Virus record (IMG/VR): IMGVR_UViG_3300046460_000424
Location: 1 to 51,537 of that record
Reading direction: 5' to 3' (one strand)
DNA from: a virus
DNA: 51,537 nucleotides
Shown: positions 3,997-20,459 of the stretch, in pieces
Numbering within the stretch: the first letter of the stretch is position 1
Layout of the letters: each line of letters begins with the position of its first letter
The notes under the pieces: model-generated
The model's input: the letters and a program-made list of their open reading frames with translations, nothing else
Database searches by the model: none
What the model was told of the DNA's origin: nothing
Made by a program: the position numbers and the translations under genes

Positions 3997-4016
3997 GCTC
4001 TCTCTCCAGAATATGT

Positions 4017-4046
4017 GGCCGACCGCGGGGGATATGGCGGTCGGCC
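4017..4046. repeat. Perfect 10-bp inverted repeat downstream of recT
   Basis: GGCCGACCGC at 4017-4026 pairs exactly with GCGGTCGGCC at 4037-4046 around a 10-base loop. It sits in the only sizeable gap of this part of the leftward operon, after the recT stop. There is no T-run on the minus strand, so it is not a textbook intrinsic terminator. It could be an attenuator, an mRNA 3'-end stabiliser or a protein-binding site. Confidence 0.6.
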
Positions 4047-7987: not shown

Positions 7988-8028
7988 CGTCTCAACTCCA
8001 AACGCCCGCTTGGGCTGTTGGGAGTGTC

Positions 8029-8043
8029 TTCACATATTGTGGA
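8029..8043. promoter_or_regulatory. Operator-like site, left operon, O-L1
   Basis: TTCACATATTGTGGA. Its exact reverse complement recurs at 8759-8773, upstream of the Cro-like gene, 700 bp away. A second copy with one change lies 34 bp further at 8063-8077. The site is an imperfect palindrome (TTCACA/TGTGGA), as expected for an HTH repressor dimer. It likely controls the leftward operon starting at 7987. Confidence 0.75.
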
Positions 8044-8062
8044 TGTCCTTGCAAGCTCTAAT

Positions 8063-8077
8063 TTCACAAATTGTGGA
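8063..8077. promoter_or_regulatory. Operator-like site, left operon, O-L2
   Basis: TTCACAAATTGTGGA, differing from the site at 8029-8043 in one base and centred 34 bp from it, a little over three helical turns, which would put two bound repressor dimers on similar faces of the DNA. It also lies upstream of the plus-strand HTH gene at 8150, so it may act on both. Confidence 0.75.
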
Positions 8078-8149
8078 GCCGCCGATTTCAGGACCGCGCG
8101 CAGTGTGAATTTGCGCTGGCGATTCCCGTGCGATTGGACATGATGCGTC

Positions 8150-8383
8150 ATGACCGCGACGACGGAACAAGTGCGCGTGACGCTGGAGAGGTTGGCGGCA
8201 GAGCGGGGCGACAGTCTCGCCGACCTGTCGCGGATGATCGGGCGTAATGCCGCCTATGTTCAGCAGTTCATCAGGCGCGGTACGCCCGCCCGCCTATCGG
8301 AAGACGACCGTCTGAAACTGGCGCAGTATTTCGGAATAGACGAGCGGGAACTAGGCGCCCGCGAACCCTGGATGCCAGGCTAG
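8150..8383 (+). CDS. HTH domain protein resembling a truncated S24-type repressor
   Basis: A 77-residue protein with an XRE-like HTH (ERGDSLADLSRMIGRNAAYVQQFIRRGTP, about 19-47). The segment RLSEDDRLKLAQYFGIDERELG is typical of the N-terminal DNA-binding part of S24-family LexA/CI-like repressors of sphingomonads. The protein stops a few residues later, where a linker and peptidase domain would follow. It ends tail-to-tail with the repressor gene at 8380 (4-base overlap). It may be a free-standing regulator that competes with the CI-like protein, or the remnant of an older repressor. Confidence 0.8.
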   Translation: MTATTEQVRVTLERLAAERGDSLADLSRMIGRNAAYVQQFIRRGTPARLSEDDRLKLAQYFGIDERELGAREPWMPG

Positions 8384-8688
8384 CCCGCGCGAACCAGCGC
8401 TTTCGCTACATCGACGAGCTGGCGCTTCTGGTCAGGGTCGGCGCTCATCCAAATCTCAAGGATGTCGGTCGGCAGATCGTTCGGATCGTGGTCAAGCAGG
8501 TGGCCGGGCTGGATATTGAGGGCCGGCGCCAGCTTGCGCAGCCATTTCGCCGATAGCCCGCGGTCGCCGCTCTCGAGCATGCTGATGACGGTCCCGGTAG
8601 TGCCGACCTTCGCTGCCAGCGCTTCCTGAGACAGCTTACGGAATTCCCGCCACGCTTTCAGGTTGTTGGGGCCGCCGTTCTTATCCAT
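8380..8688 (-). CDS. CI-like XRE-family repressor
   Basis: A 102-residue protein with a clear HTH_3 domain: LKAWREFRKLSQEALAAKVGTTGTVISMLESGDRGLSAKWLRKLAPALNI (about 10-60). The C-terminus (LPTDILEIWMSADPDQKRQLVDVAKALV) resembles the dimerisation tail of short XRE repressors. It is divergent from the Cro-like gene at 8783 across a gap with three operator-like sites, the classic lysogeny-switch arrangement. No S24 peptidase domain is present, so induction would not use LexA-type self-cleavage. I chose the ATG at 8688; operator site O-R3 begins two bases upstream, which would allow autoregulation. Confidence 0.88.
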   Translation of the reverse strand: MDKNGGPNNLKAWREFRKLSQEALAAKVGTTGTVISMLESGDRGLSAKWLRKLAPALNIQPGHLLDHDPNDLPTDILEIWMSADPDQKRQLVDVAKALVRAG

Positions 8689-8689
8689 C

Positions 8690-8704
8690 TCCACATTATG
8701 CGGC
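8690..8704. promoter_or_regulatory. Degenerate operator-like site O-R3
   Basis: TCCACATTATGCGGC matches the consensus TCCACAATATGTGAA at 11 of 15 positions, with a perfect left half. It abuts the start codon of the repressor gene, the position expected for a weak autoregulatory operator. Confidence 0.5.
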
Positions 8705-8723
8705 GGCGCACCACAAAGCGCTT

Positions 8724-8738
8724 TAGACAGACTGTGAA
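8724..8738. promoter_or_regulatory. Degenerate operator-like site O-R2
   Basis: TAGACAGACTGTGAA matches the consensus at 10 of 15 positions with a perfect right half (TGTGAA). It is centred 34 bp from O-R3 and 35 bp from O-R1, the same spacing as the pair in front of the leftward operon. Confidence 0.48.
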
Positions 8739-8758
8739 GATGGGCTCTTGCACACGCC

Positions 8759-8773
8759 TCCACAATATGTGAA
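8759..8773. promoter_or_regulatory. Operator-like site O-R1
   Basis: TCCACAATATGTGAA, the exact reverse complement of the site at 8029-8043. It lies 10 bases upstream of the Cro-like start codon, so a repressor bound here would block the rightward early promoter or ribosome access. Confidence 0.75.
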
Positions 8774-8782
8774 GGTACCGGA

Positions 8783-8989
8783 ATGAGCATCCCGACAGCC
8801 AGAGAGCTTTGCGACGCGACCGGCATTAGCCCGTCTTACGCCCACATGATCCTGAGCGGTGACCGGAAGCCGGCGCGACCGCTGGCGATCGAGATATTCC
8901 GAAAGCTCGACTGGCGGCACGCGGTGATCGCGGATCTGACGCCCGAAGAGATCGATACGCTGGAGCGGATCGAAGCGAGGGCAGCCTAA
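8783..8989 (+). CDS. Cro-like HTH protein
   Basis: A 68-residue protein made almost wholly of an HTH (TARELCDATGISPSYAHMILSGDRKPARPLAIEIFRKL, about 5-42) with a short helical tail. Size and fold match Cro/YdaS-type regulators. It faces away from the CI-like gene over the operator region and should be the first gene of the rightward transcript. Its stop overlaps that of the minus-strand gene at 8986. Confidence 0.82.
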   Translation: MSIPTARELCDATGISPSYAHMILSGDRKPARPLAIEIFRKLDWRHAVIADLTPEEIDTLERIEARAA

Positions 8990-14698: not shown

Positions 14699-15157
14699 AT
14701 GGCAGGATCAATGAACCGGGTAACGCTCGTCGGAAACGTCGGCAAAGACCCCGAGAGCAAGAGCTTCACCAATGGTGGAAAGGTCGTGAACCTCTCGATC
14801 GCGACAGCCGAGACGTGGAAGGACAAAACGACCGGCGAGCGCAAGGAAAAGACAGAGTGGCACAATGTCTCGATCTTTCAGGATGGGCTCACCGGCATCG
14901 TCGAGCAGTACGTTCGCAAGGGGTCGCGGATCCTCGTCGAGGGCAAGCTGCAGACGCGCAAGTGGCAGGACCAGTCGGGCAACGATCGGTATTCCACCGA
15001 GGTCGTGCTGCAGGGGCCTGATGCACGGATCATCCTGCTGGACGGCAAGCCGAGCGGTGACAATGCCCGCGGTTCGACGCGGGAGCAGGCCGAACAGCGC
15101 GAGGGCCCGGGCAAGAGCAAGTTCGCCGACGACCTCGACGACGACGTGCCCTTCTGA
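14699..15157 (+). CDS. ssb: Single-stranded DNA-binding protein
   Basis: A 152-residue SSB with the typical N-terminal OB fold: MNRVTLVGNVGKDPE, then VVNLSIATAETW, KTEWHNVSIF, and GSRILVEGKLQTRKWQD. A polar linker follows (about 105-140), and the acidic C-terminal tip DLDDDVPF is the segment that binds partner replication proteins. Length is close to normal for bacterial and phage SSBs. It protects ssDNA made by the exonuclease/RecT pair and by the primase-helicase. An internal ATG five codons in is an alternative start. Confidence 0.95.
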   Translation: MAGSMNRVTLVGNVGKDPESKSFTNGGKVVNLSIATAETWKDKTTGERKEKTEWHNVSIFQDGLTGIVEQYVRKGSRILVEGKLQTRKWQDQSGNDRYSTEVVLQGPDARIILLDGKPSGDNARGSTREQAEQREGPGKSKFADDLDDDVPF

Positions 15158-18646: not shown

Positions 18647-18879
18647 CGATCATTATGGGTGTTCCCGAGCCAAGTTCGGTCGGGGTCACTGTGCGCGATG
18701 GCCTGATACATCTCAGCACCTTCGGGGAATTCGAGGGGCAGCGGGCGCACTGCGTGACATCGTTTGCGGCCGATGTGGGCATGAGATTGTGCGACGCGCT
18801 TAATGCTGCACTACCATTCGCAGTGCAAGTAAGAGGCGGCGCGCCAGTCATTGCCTTCGTGGTGGCGCCCAAAGAATGA
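18643..18879 (+). CDS. Hypothetical protein, 78 aa
   Basis: Unrecognised small protein with a short beta domain (SVGVTVRDGLIHLSTFGEFEG) followed by the helix ADVGMRLCDALNAALPFA and a final strand. It is coupled by GTGA to the structural gene before it and by ATGA to the large terminase gene after it. Confidence 0.72.
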   Translation: MTIIMGVPEPSSVGVTVRDGLIHLSTFGEFEGQRAHCVTSFAADVGMRLCDALNAALPFAVQVRGGAPVIAFVVAPKE

Positions 18880-20459
18880 CCCTGCTCGACGAGGTCGCTG
18901 CAAAGATCGGGGGAATGGACCCTGACGAGCGTGCGGCCCTCGTCGAGCAGGTTGCGCCCCTGAAGGAGCGCATGCGGTTCGTGCCGTTGCCGGGGCCGCA
19001 GACGGAAGCGTATCTCTGTAAGGCGGATATCCTGCTGTACGGAGGGCAGGCTGGCGGCGGGAAGTCCTATCTCGTGATGGGGCTCGCCAGCCAGGAGCAT
19101 CAGTCCAGCATCGTATTCCGCCGTGAATCGTCGCAGACGGACGGCCTCGAGAGGGCTGGCAAGGAAATCATTGGCGACAGCGCCCGGTTCAACGGCACCG
19201 ACAAGGAATGGAGCTGGCTTACTGGCCGCTCGCTCAAGCTGGCGGGCATGCAGCTTCCGGGCGACTGGAACAAGCACGCCGGCCGTGAGCGCGACCTGAT
19301 GGCGTTCGATGAGGCAGGCGAGTTTCTTCGCGAACAGGTCGCATCGCTACTCGCATGGAACCGCGGGCCTGAGGGGCAGCGTTGCCGGGTCGTTCTGGCA
19401 TCCAATCCGCCACGATCGGCTGATGGCTACTGGATGACCGAATGGTTCGCCCCATGGCTGGATCCGCACCACGCCTTGCACGCCGAACAGGGCGAGTTGC
19501 GTTGGGCCGTCATGCTCGATGGCTCGGCCGGGCTCTATCCGAACTGGGTCGATGGGCCGGACGCCGAGTACATCGTCGATGGCGAGCGGCGGGAGGTGCT
19601 GTCATTCACGTTCATTCCCGCGTCGCTCAAGGACAATCCTTACCGCAACACGCCTGAGTACCGCGCCAAGATCGACAGCCTGCCCGAACCGCTTCGGTCG
19701 CAGCTCAAGCACGGCGACTTCGGAGCGGGCGTTCAAGACGACCTGGCGCAGGCCATCCCCACGGAATGGGTGAAGGCGGCGATGTATCGCTGGACCGAGC
19801 GCCGCCCGGTTGGAATCCCGATGTGTGCGATGGGCGTGGACGTTGCTCAGGGCGGCAACGACAAGACGGTCATCGCCACCCGCTACGACGATTGGTTCGA
19901 TAATCTGCTTGCTATCCCGGGGGCTGAAACGCCGGGCGGCTCGGATGTGGCGGGCAAGGTACTCGCGAAGCGCCATGACGGGGCAAAGGTGATCGTCGAT
20001 CTTGGCGGGGGCTGGGGCGGTGACGCGCTTGCTCATCTCGTCAAGAACGGCGTCGATGCAGTCGGCTACATGGGAGTGAAGGACTCGGTTCGCCGAACCC
20101 GCGACAACCAGCTTCGGTTCTGCAATGTTCGCACTGAGGCTTACTGGCGTTTCCGCGAGGCCATCGACCCATCGAACGTCGGTGGTGCCACGCTGGCGCT
20201 GCCTGACGACAAGGAATTGCTTGCCGACCTGACGGCCCCGACCTTCGAAACGAAGTCGGGCAAGGGCGGCATGGTCATACACCTCGAGCCCAAGGAAAAG
20301 CTGGTCAAGCGCATCGGCCGATCACCCGACAAGGGCGACGCAGTGGTGATGTGCTGGTGGGCGGGCGCCAAGGCAATCACCGATGCGGAGAACTGGCGGG
20401 CCGATCAGACAGGCCGGCCCGGCGGACGCGTCCCCAAAGTCATCACGAGGAAGCGGTAA
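18876..20459 (+). CDS. terL: Terminase large subunit
   Basis: A 527-residue packaging motor ATPase-nuclease. ATPase domain: Walker A YGGQAGGGKS (55-64), Walker B LMAFDEAGEF (141-150, with Asp145 and catalytic Glu146), and the coupling segment VVLASNPP (172-179). RNase H-like nuclease domain: MGVDVAQGGNDKT (Asp322), VIVDLGGGWGG (Asp about 379) and a likely third acidic residue near the end (PDKGDAVVM). It cuts concatemeric DNA and drives it into the head. The length is normal for the family. Confidence 0.96.
   Translation: MTLLDEVAAKIGGMDPDERAALVEQVAPLKERMRFVPLPGPQTEAYLCKADILLYGGQAGGGKSYLVMGLASQEHQSSIVFRRESSQTDGLERAGKEIIGDSARFNGTDKEWSWLTGRSLKLAGMQLPGDWNKHAGRERDLMAFDEAGEFLREQVASLLAWNRGPEGQRCRVVLASNPPRSADGYWMTEWFAPWLDPHHALHAEQGELRWAVMLDGSAGLYPNWVDGPDAEYIVDGERREVLSFTFIPASLKDNPYRNTPEYRAKIDSLPEPLRSQLKHGDFGAGVQDDLAQAIPTEWVKAAMYRWTERRPVGIPMCAMGVDVAQGGNDKTVIATRYDDWFDNLLAIPGAETPGGSDVAGKVLAKRHDGAKVIVDLGGGWGGDALAHLVKNGVDAVGYMGVKDSVRRTRDNQLRFCNVRTEAYWRFREAIDPSNVGGATLALPDDKELLADLTAPTFETKSGKGGMVIHLEPKEKLVKRIGRSPDKGDAVVMCWWAGAKAITDAENWRADQTGRPGGRVPKVITRKR

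Follow-up and report, generated by a model that had tools for sequence, protein, structure and literature searches.

The logic of a repressor-operated lysogeny switch is already known from lambda, from N15 and phiKO2, which work with a non-cleaving repressor, and from PY54, with its leaderless cI and cro. Neighbouring operator centres in lambda lie roughly 20-24 bp apart. The leaderless cI of lambda and the other features of its switch are described elsewhere (PMC3708714, PMC4488713) and are partly general knowledge. The immB region of N15 and phiKO2 contains five operators, three between the repressor gene and cro and two elsewhere; the repressor has no conserved self-cleavage residues, and the Cro of phiKO2 binds OR3 only (PMC4997575). 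For PY54, which is related to N15 and phiKO2, leaderless cI and cro mRNAs have been shown (PMC4488713). In Gifsy-1 and Gifsy-2, the repressor is a protein of 136 aa without a cleavage domain, and short repressors of this kind are removed by antirepressors (PMC3121763).

We analyzed a window of 51,537 nucleotides (the whole stretch of viral DNA available as IMG/VR record IMGVR_UViG_3300046460_000424), in which five related sites flank a short repressor gene. As judged from the sequence and from related loci, these sites are very probably the operators of a lambda-type OL/OR lysogeny switch, to which the short repressor CI and Cro would bind. The repressor family, the spacing of 34-35 bp and the many operator classes found on one scaffold appear to be new.

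Five probable operator sites around a short repressor gene

An earlier note on this DNA had claimed that the same 15-bp site recurs with a spacing of about 34 bp in two clusters, and that two weaker sites complete a set of three in the gap between CI and Cro. The 15-mer TTCACATATTGTGGA is indeed present at 8029-8043 (+), its exact reverse complement at 8759-8773, and a single-base variant, TTCACAAATTGTGGA, at 8063-8077 (+). The weak sites read TAGACAGACTGTGAA (8724-8738) and TCCACATTATGCGGC (8690-8704). The operator centres are located at 8036 and 8070 in the left gap and at 8697, 8731 and 8766 in the right gap, giving centre-to-centre distances of 34 bp on the left and of 34 and 35 bp on the right, and the general form of the operator is NNNNCA-N3-TGNNNN. 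The sites and the genes around them are:

8029..8043, minus strand: OL1, TCCACAATATGTGAA on this strand, just 3' of the PL -35; relatives have it at the same position with respect to TTGAC
8063..8077, minus strand: OL2, TCCACAATTTGTGAA, 34 bp upstream of OL1
8150..8383, plus strand: third HTH gene (77 aa), occupying the variable cI-OL slot and adjoining the left cluster
8380..8688, minus strand: cI, 102-aa SinR/P22-c2-like HTH repressor (Pfam HTH_3, HTH_19)
8690..8704, minus strand: O3, GCCGCATAATGTGGA, centre at -9 from the cI start, overlapping the PRM -10
8724..8738, minus strand: O2, TTCACAGTCTGTCTA, centre at -43 from the cI start, abutting the PRM -35
8759..8773, plus strand: O1, TCCACAATATGTGAA, 35 bp from O2
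8783..8989, plus strand: cro, 68-aa HTH protein with recognition helix 17-25 and a weak HTH_3 match

With at most 3 mismatches, TTCACATATTGTGGA was matched five times in the window against 0.31 expected, a number reached in 0 of 100 shuffles. The best 15-mer common to both gaps has 0 mismatches, and 200 shuffles of the gaps gave 2 mismatches at best. Two further 3-mismatch matches (4005-4019 and 14765-14779) are at chance level, and a scan of the whole window for the operator motif detected nothing above chance outside the five sites. For the two weak sites the window alone is insufficient evidence; every relative has conserved sites at those positions, which confirmed them as members of the set.

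The helices of CI are predicted at residues 10-16, 21-28, 32-40 (recognition helix), 47-56, 61-66, 74-82 and 85-101, the last two, C-terminal, with a pLDDT of about 70. The best full-length Foldseek match of the CI model was SinR (1b0n), with a TM of 0.60 over 97 columns; the phi106 repressor-AimX entry (PDB 9sf2) also reached a TM of 0.60, but the sequences are only 22% and 20% identical, respectively. HTH-only chains ranked at the top of a second structure comparison, so that the C-terminal helices are weakly placed. The folds nearest to CI are that of SinR over the full length and those of HTH domains such as P22 c2. Among 43 repressor homologues, none gave a Pfam match to the S24 peptidase. 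The CI of the window is thus not a truncated copy, and its description in the earlier note as a 102-residue repressor without the cleavable S24 domain is borne out. Against isolated phages and plasmids, a nucleotide search gave no match and the CI protein of the window gave matches of 29-45% identity, three of them limited to the HTH part and three extending over ~91-93% of the query; the CI of the related locus L019 had no match. Among 50,697 phage records, the CI family yielded nothing beyond generic HTH similarity.

The start codon of cro lies 17 nt from the centre of O1, as in most relatives. The third HTH gene, which the earlier note does not mention, is convergent with cI and overlaps its stop codon. 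Its product lacks an S24 domain but is related to the HTH segment of S24-type regulators. Its relatives are stand-alone proteins in other phages or, in plasmids of Sphingomonas, Sphingobium and Bradyrhizobium, the HTH segment of S24 regulators; this hints at a Sphingomonad as the host. The left operon carries genes for a tyrosine-integrase, RecT and YqaJ, and the right operon genes for a primase-helicase and SSB. The proposal that one switch ties both early operons together holds as sequence anatomy. Further along the window, the large terminase (18876-20459, +) is nearest to those of Bordetella phage BPP-1 and Acidovorax phage AP1, with about 41-42% identity.

Layout and promoter elements in 44 related loci

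Relatives were collected by the repressor protein pattern alone, so that the search was not biased toward loci with operators. The nearest repressor (L004, 73% identity) belongs to a locus that also has five sites, spaced by 35 and 34 bp on the right and 34 bp on the left, with operator letters GTCACA versus TTCACA in the window. An alignment of these two repressors used as query gave 21 more loci, and a larger repressor alignment brought the total to 44 different loci, window included (43 relatives). With Cro as query, the window protein alone gave no relatives and a two-row alignment 2 loci. An Afipia locus (L007) was rejected as a relative because, although the HTH family is shared, cro is missing and the upstream palindrome is another one.

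Operator positions refer to the site centre and are counted from where the cI start codon begins. The O2 centre is at -43 in 44/44 loci. The centre of O1 is at -78 in 34 loci, at -77 in 7 and at -79 in 1, and the O1-O2 distance is 34-35 bp in 41/44; in L069 and L073 it is 46 bp versus the usual 34, about one helical turn longer. O3 is centred at -9 in 25 loci and at -16/-17 in 14. Where O3 is displaced by 8 bp (L013, L015, L039-L043), O2 is still at -43 and the PRM -10 is unmoved, as expected if the position of O2 is set by PRM. In the half of the loci set aside before inspection, O1 fits in 19/22 and O2 in 22/22. Placed automatically, the two OL sites are 34 bp apart in 18 loci, 35 bp in 7 and 33 bp in 2; placed by hand, they are 32-36 bp apart except in L014 (25) and L031 (23). 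A de novo detector returned spacing triples of 19/50 and 19/16 in some loci, where the conserved GCAAG of a -35 resembles a half-site; anchoring on O1 resolves them.

The earlier note had proposed a comparison with related loci, in which the same repressor might have been found without the sites. All 44 loci keep the right-hand set, none being without it, and the left pair is present at every locus with at least about 1 kb of downstream sequence. When the pattern of the OL pair in the window was sought in viral contigs, there was no match, because the letters differ between phages and the layout is the conserved feature. The O1-OL1 distance varies among relatives from 450 to 2399 bp because the genes in the slot between cI and OL differ between phages; the third HTH gene is absent from this slot in the relatives examined. 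From the cI stop to OL the slot measures 0 to 1.3 kb (L013, L022, L024-L030, L038, L053-L055, L067, L070, L076), and its genes are varied, mostly of unknown kind and often membrane or secreted-looking. They are candidates for lysogen-expressed functions, e.g., exclusion. On the other side of the repressor gene, Cro is replaced in L031 (423-617), L044 (2710-2892) and L075/L076 (2674-2895) by an unrelated HTH protein, which we take from the appearance of its sequence to be YdaS-like, and the operators are kept. CI is thus the constant partner of the sites.

A scan of the window for consensus promoters and terminators found no site; promoters were read instead from conservation across the loci:

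8049..8054, minus strand: PL -35-like TTGCAA, starting 11 bp upstream of OL1 (TTGAC(C) in relatives)
8695..8700, minus strand: PRM -10, CATAAT, at -12..-7 of the cI ATG
8718..8723, minus strand: PRM -35 position, AAGCGC, with a 17-bp spacer and a poor consensus match
8748..8753, plus strand: PR -35-like TTGCAC, starting 11 bp upstream of O1

When the 44 loci are aligned on the cI start, the -10 hexamer stands at -12..-7, with 2.00 bits for the A at -11 and 1.84 bits for the T at -7, and the cI mRNA is therefore predicted to be leaderless. The PRM -35 position is weakly conserved across the same loci, and O2 ends directly beside it. Alignment on O1 showed a TTGC conserved over the 44 loci, which begins 11 bp upstream of O1 on the strand of cro, and alignment on OL1 a TTGAC(C), mostly 11 bp upstream. 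The prediction of a fixed 11-bp distance between TTGAC and OL1 for all loci failed in detail, the range being 8-12 bp with departures in several loci. A clear -10 is missing from both PR and PL, and the A at +6 also belongs to the operator. A hairpin often opens the PL leader, its 5' CUCC arm pairing with GGAG, the Shine-Dalgarno sequence of the first gene on the left (7988-8016 (-) in the window; immediately 3' of OL1 in many relatives, e.g., CCTCCATCACCCGATGGAGG in L025); it is strong in L023, L028, L039 and L040 (z -4 to -5) and weak in the window (z -1.3).

Operator letters and recognition helices

The half-site letters vary among loci (TTCACA, GTCACA, ATCACA, TTCGCA, TTTGCA, GTTACA) and can be grouped into the classes NNCACA, TTCGCA, TTTGCA and GTTACA. 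Within one locus the letters change together, while the positions of the sites stay. Among the CI columns, residue 37 is the best for bases 3-4 (score 0.67) and residue 32 for base 1 (0.41); among the Cro columns, residue 22 is the best for bases 3-4 (0.75, the next column reaching 0.28). In the predicted structures, CI residues 32 and 37 come first and sixth in the recognition helix 32-40, and Cro residue 22 is sixth in helix 17-25. Positions 1 and 6 of the recognition helix are known contacts in the lambda and 434 proteins. Rules linking residues to letters were fixed before 22 new loci were read: the CI rule was correct in 21/22, L054 breaking it, and the Cro rule in all 17 of the new loci that it covers, L051 lying outside it.

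On the tree of loci there are only 6 changes of operator class, forming 2-4 independent pairs, and the sign test for covariation is not significant; relatedness alone could yield much of the pattern linking residues and letters. The covariation of both recognition helices with the operators only suggests that CI and Cro both contact them. Also, it would not be safe to say that both proteins read all five sites, because in phiKO2, where five sites are arranged in the same way, Cro binds only OR3.

Proposed switch and comparison with known systems

In the switch that we propose, CI bound to O1 and OL1 would cover the DNA just 3' of the PR and PL -35 elements, thereby silencing both the right operon (replication) and the left one (RecT, YqaJ, integrase). 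A second dimer would be added at O2 and OL2, which lie 34-35 bp further upstream. The cI gene would be transcribed leftward from the leaderless PRM, with its good -10 and poor -35, and CI at O2, whose centre at -43 places it against the PRM -35, probably activates its own promoter, as the geometry suggests. Filling of O3 by Cro or by excess CI would then shut off cI, since O3 overlaps the PRM -10.

Neutral similarity of the two gaps, by chance or as an artefact of descent, can be considered negligible as the origin of the repeats: the shared ancestry of the relatives makes some conservation expected, but the spacers between sites carry little information whereas the sites and promoter elements do, the letters switch in step at constant positions, and the shuffles fall short of the observed repeat. 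It would be very surprising if the main reader of the sites were Cro or the third HTH protein (8150-8383) rather than CI. No CI column follows the operator letters as closely as Cro residue 22 does, and the third HTH gene directly adjoins OL; however, the layout is kept where an unrelated protein replaces Cro (L031, L044, L076) and in loci without the third HTH gene, and CI residues 32 and 37 likewise track the letters.

The role of O2 is more debatable. The sites could be CI operators among which O2 is a weak cooperative site only, so that PRM would not be activated and lysogeny would depend on repression alone. We regard this as possible, if rather doubtful: O2 is degenerate in the TTCGCA class, often with one good half-site, CI is without the C-terminal domain of lambda, and activation of PRM is suggested by geometry, but O2 is fixed at -43 in every locus, even with a shifted O3, and a poor -35 joined to a good -10 is the usual look of an activated promoter. 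The unmoved O2 is the strongest sequence argument that its role may be set by PRM, as for lambda OR2. Activation of PRM is part of a wider proposal that we make tentatively, rating it slightly short of an even chance: in a family of uncultivated phages with a fixed five-operator scaffold, the operator letters and the matching recognition-helix residues of CI and Cro would be exchanged together, giving several immunity classes, up to about six, and a CI without S24 would repress PR and PL and, by means of a C-terminal hairpin like that of SinR, activate its leaderless promoter when bound at O2.

Changes of phage immunity are hard to study, as they require joint shifts in the repressor, in Cro and in at least five operators. 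The 44 natural loci constitute ready-made pairs of repressor and operators for such studies, and their constant geometry, with few variable bases and residues, makes the question directly testable. Also, a small and simple repressor isolates which parts of the lambda switch require the large C-terminal domain.

The parallel with lambda OL/OR drawn in the earlier note holds as sequence anatomy, for the sites, for the left and right operons and for the layout in 44 loci. As in lambda, cI and cro diverge around three related operators, further operators stand at the left early promoter, the left operon serves recombination and integration and the right operon replication, PRM is weak with a middle operator near -42 (here O2, at -43 from the predicted start), and cI is leaderless (here predicted from the position of the -10). 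Unlike that of lambda, the CI described here has 102 aa and no S24 oligomerisation and cleavage domain, OL has two sites instead of three, and the operator centres are 34-35 bp apart; the OL-OR distance of 0.45-2.4 kb among relatives is a further difference. A small repressor without a cleavage domain is shared with Gifsy-type systems. Their antirepressor is under LexA control. No antirepressor gene was recognized in the window, and a search for a LexA box as an exact GTTC-N7-GTTC gave none; antirepressors share no common sequence. The three OR and two OL sites, together with a repressor without S24 match, recall N15 and phiKO2. Nevertheless, the operators of these phages are 16-bp T-A-(N)10-T-A sequences instead of NNNNCA-N3-TGNNNN, and their OL controls the plasmid replication gene repA, whereas here OL precedes the RecT and YqaJ genes. 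N15 and phiKO2 are telomere phages without an integrated prophage, whereas the window carries a tyrosine-integrase gene.
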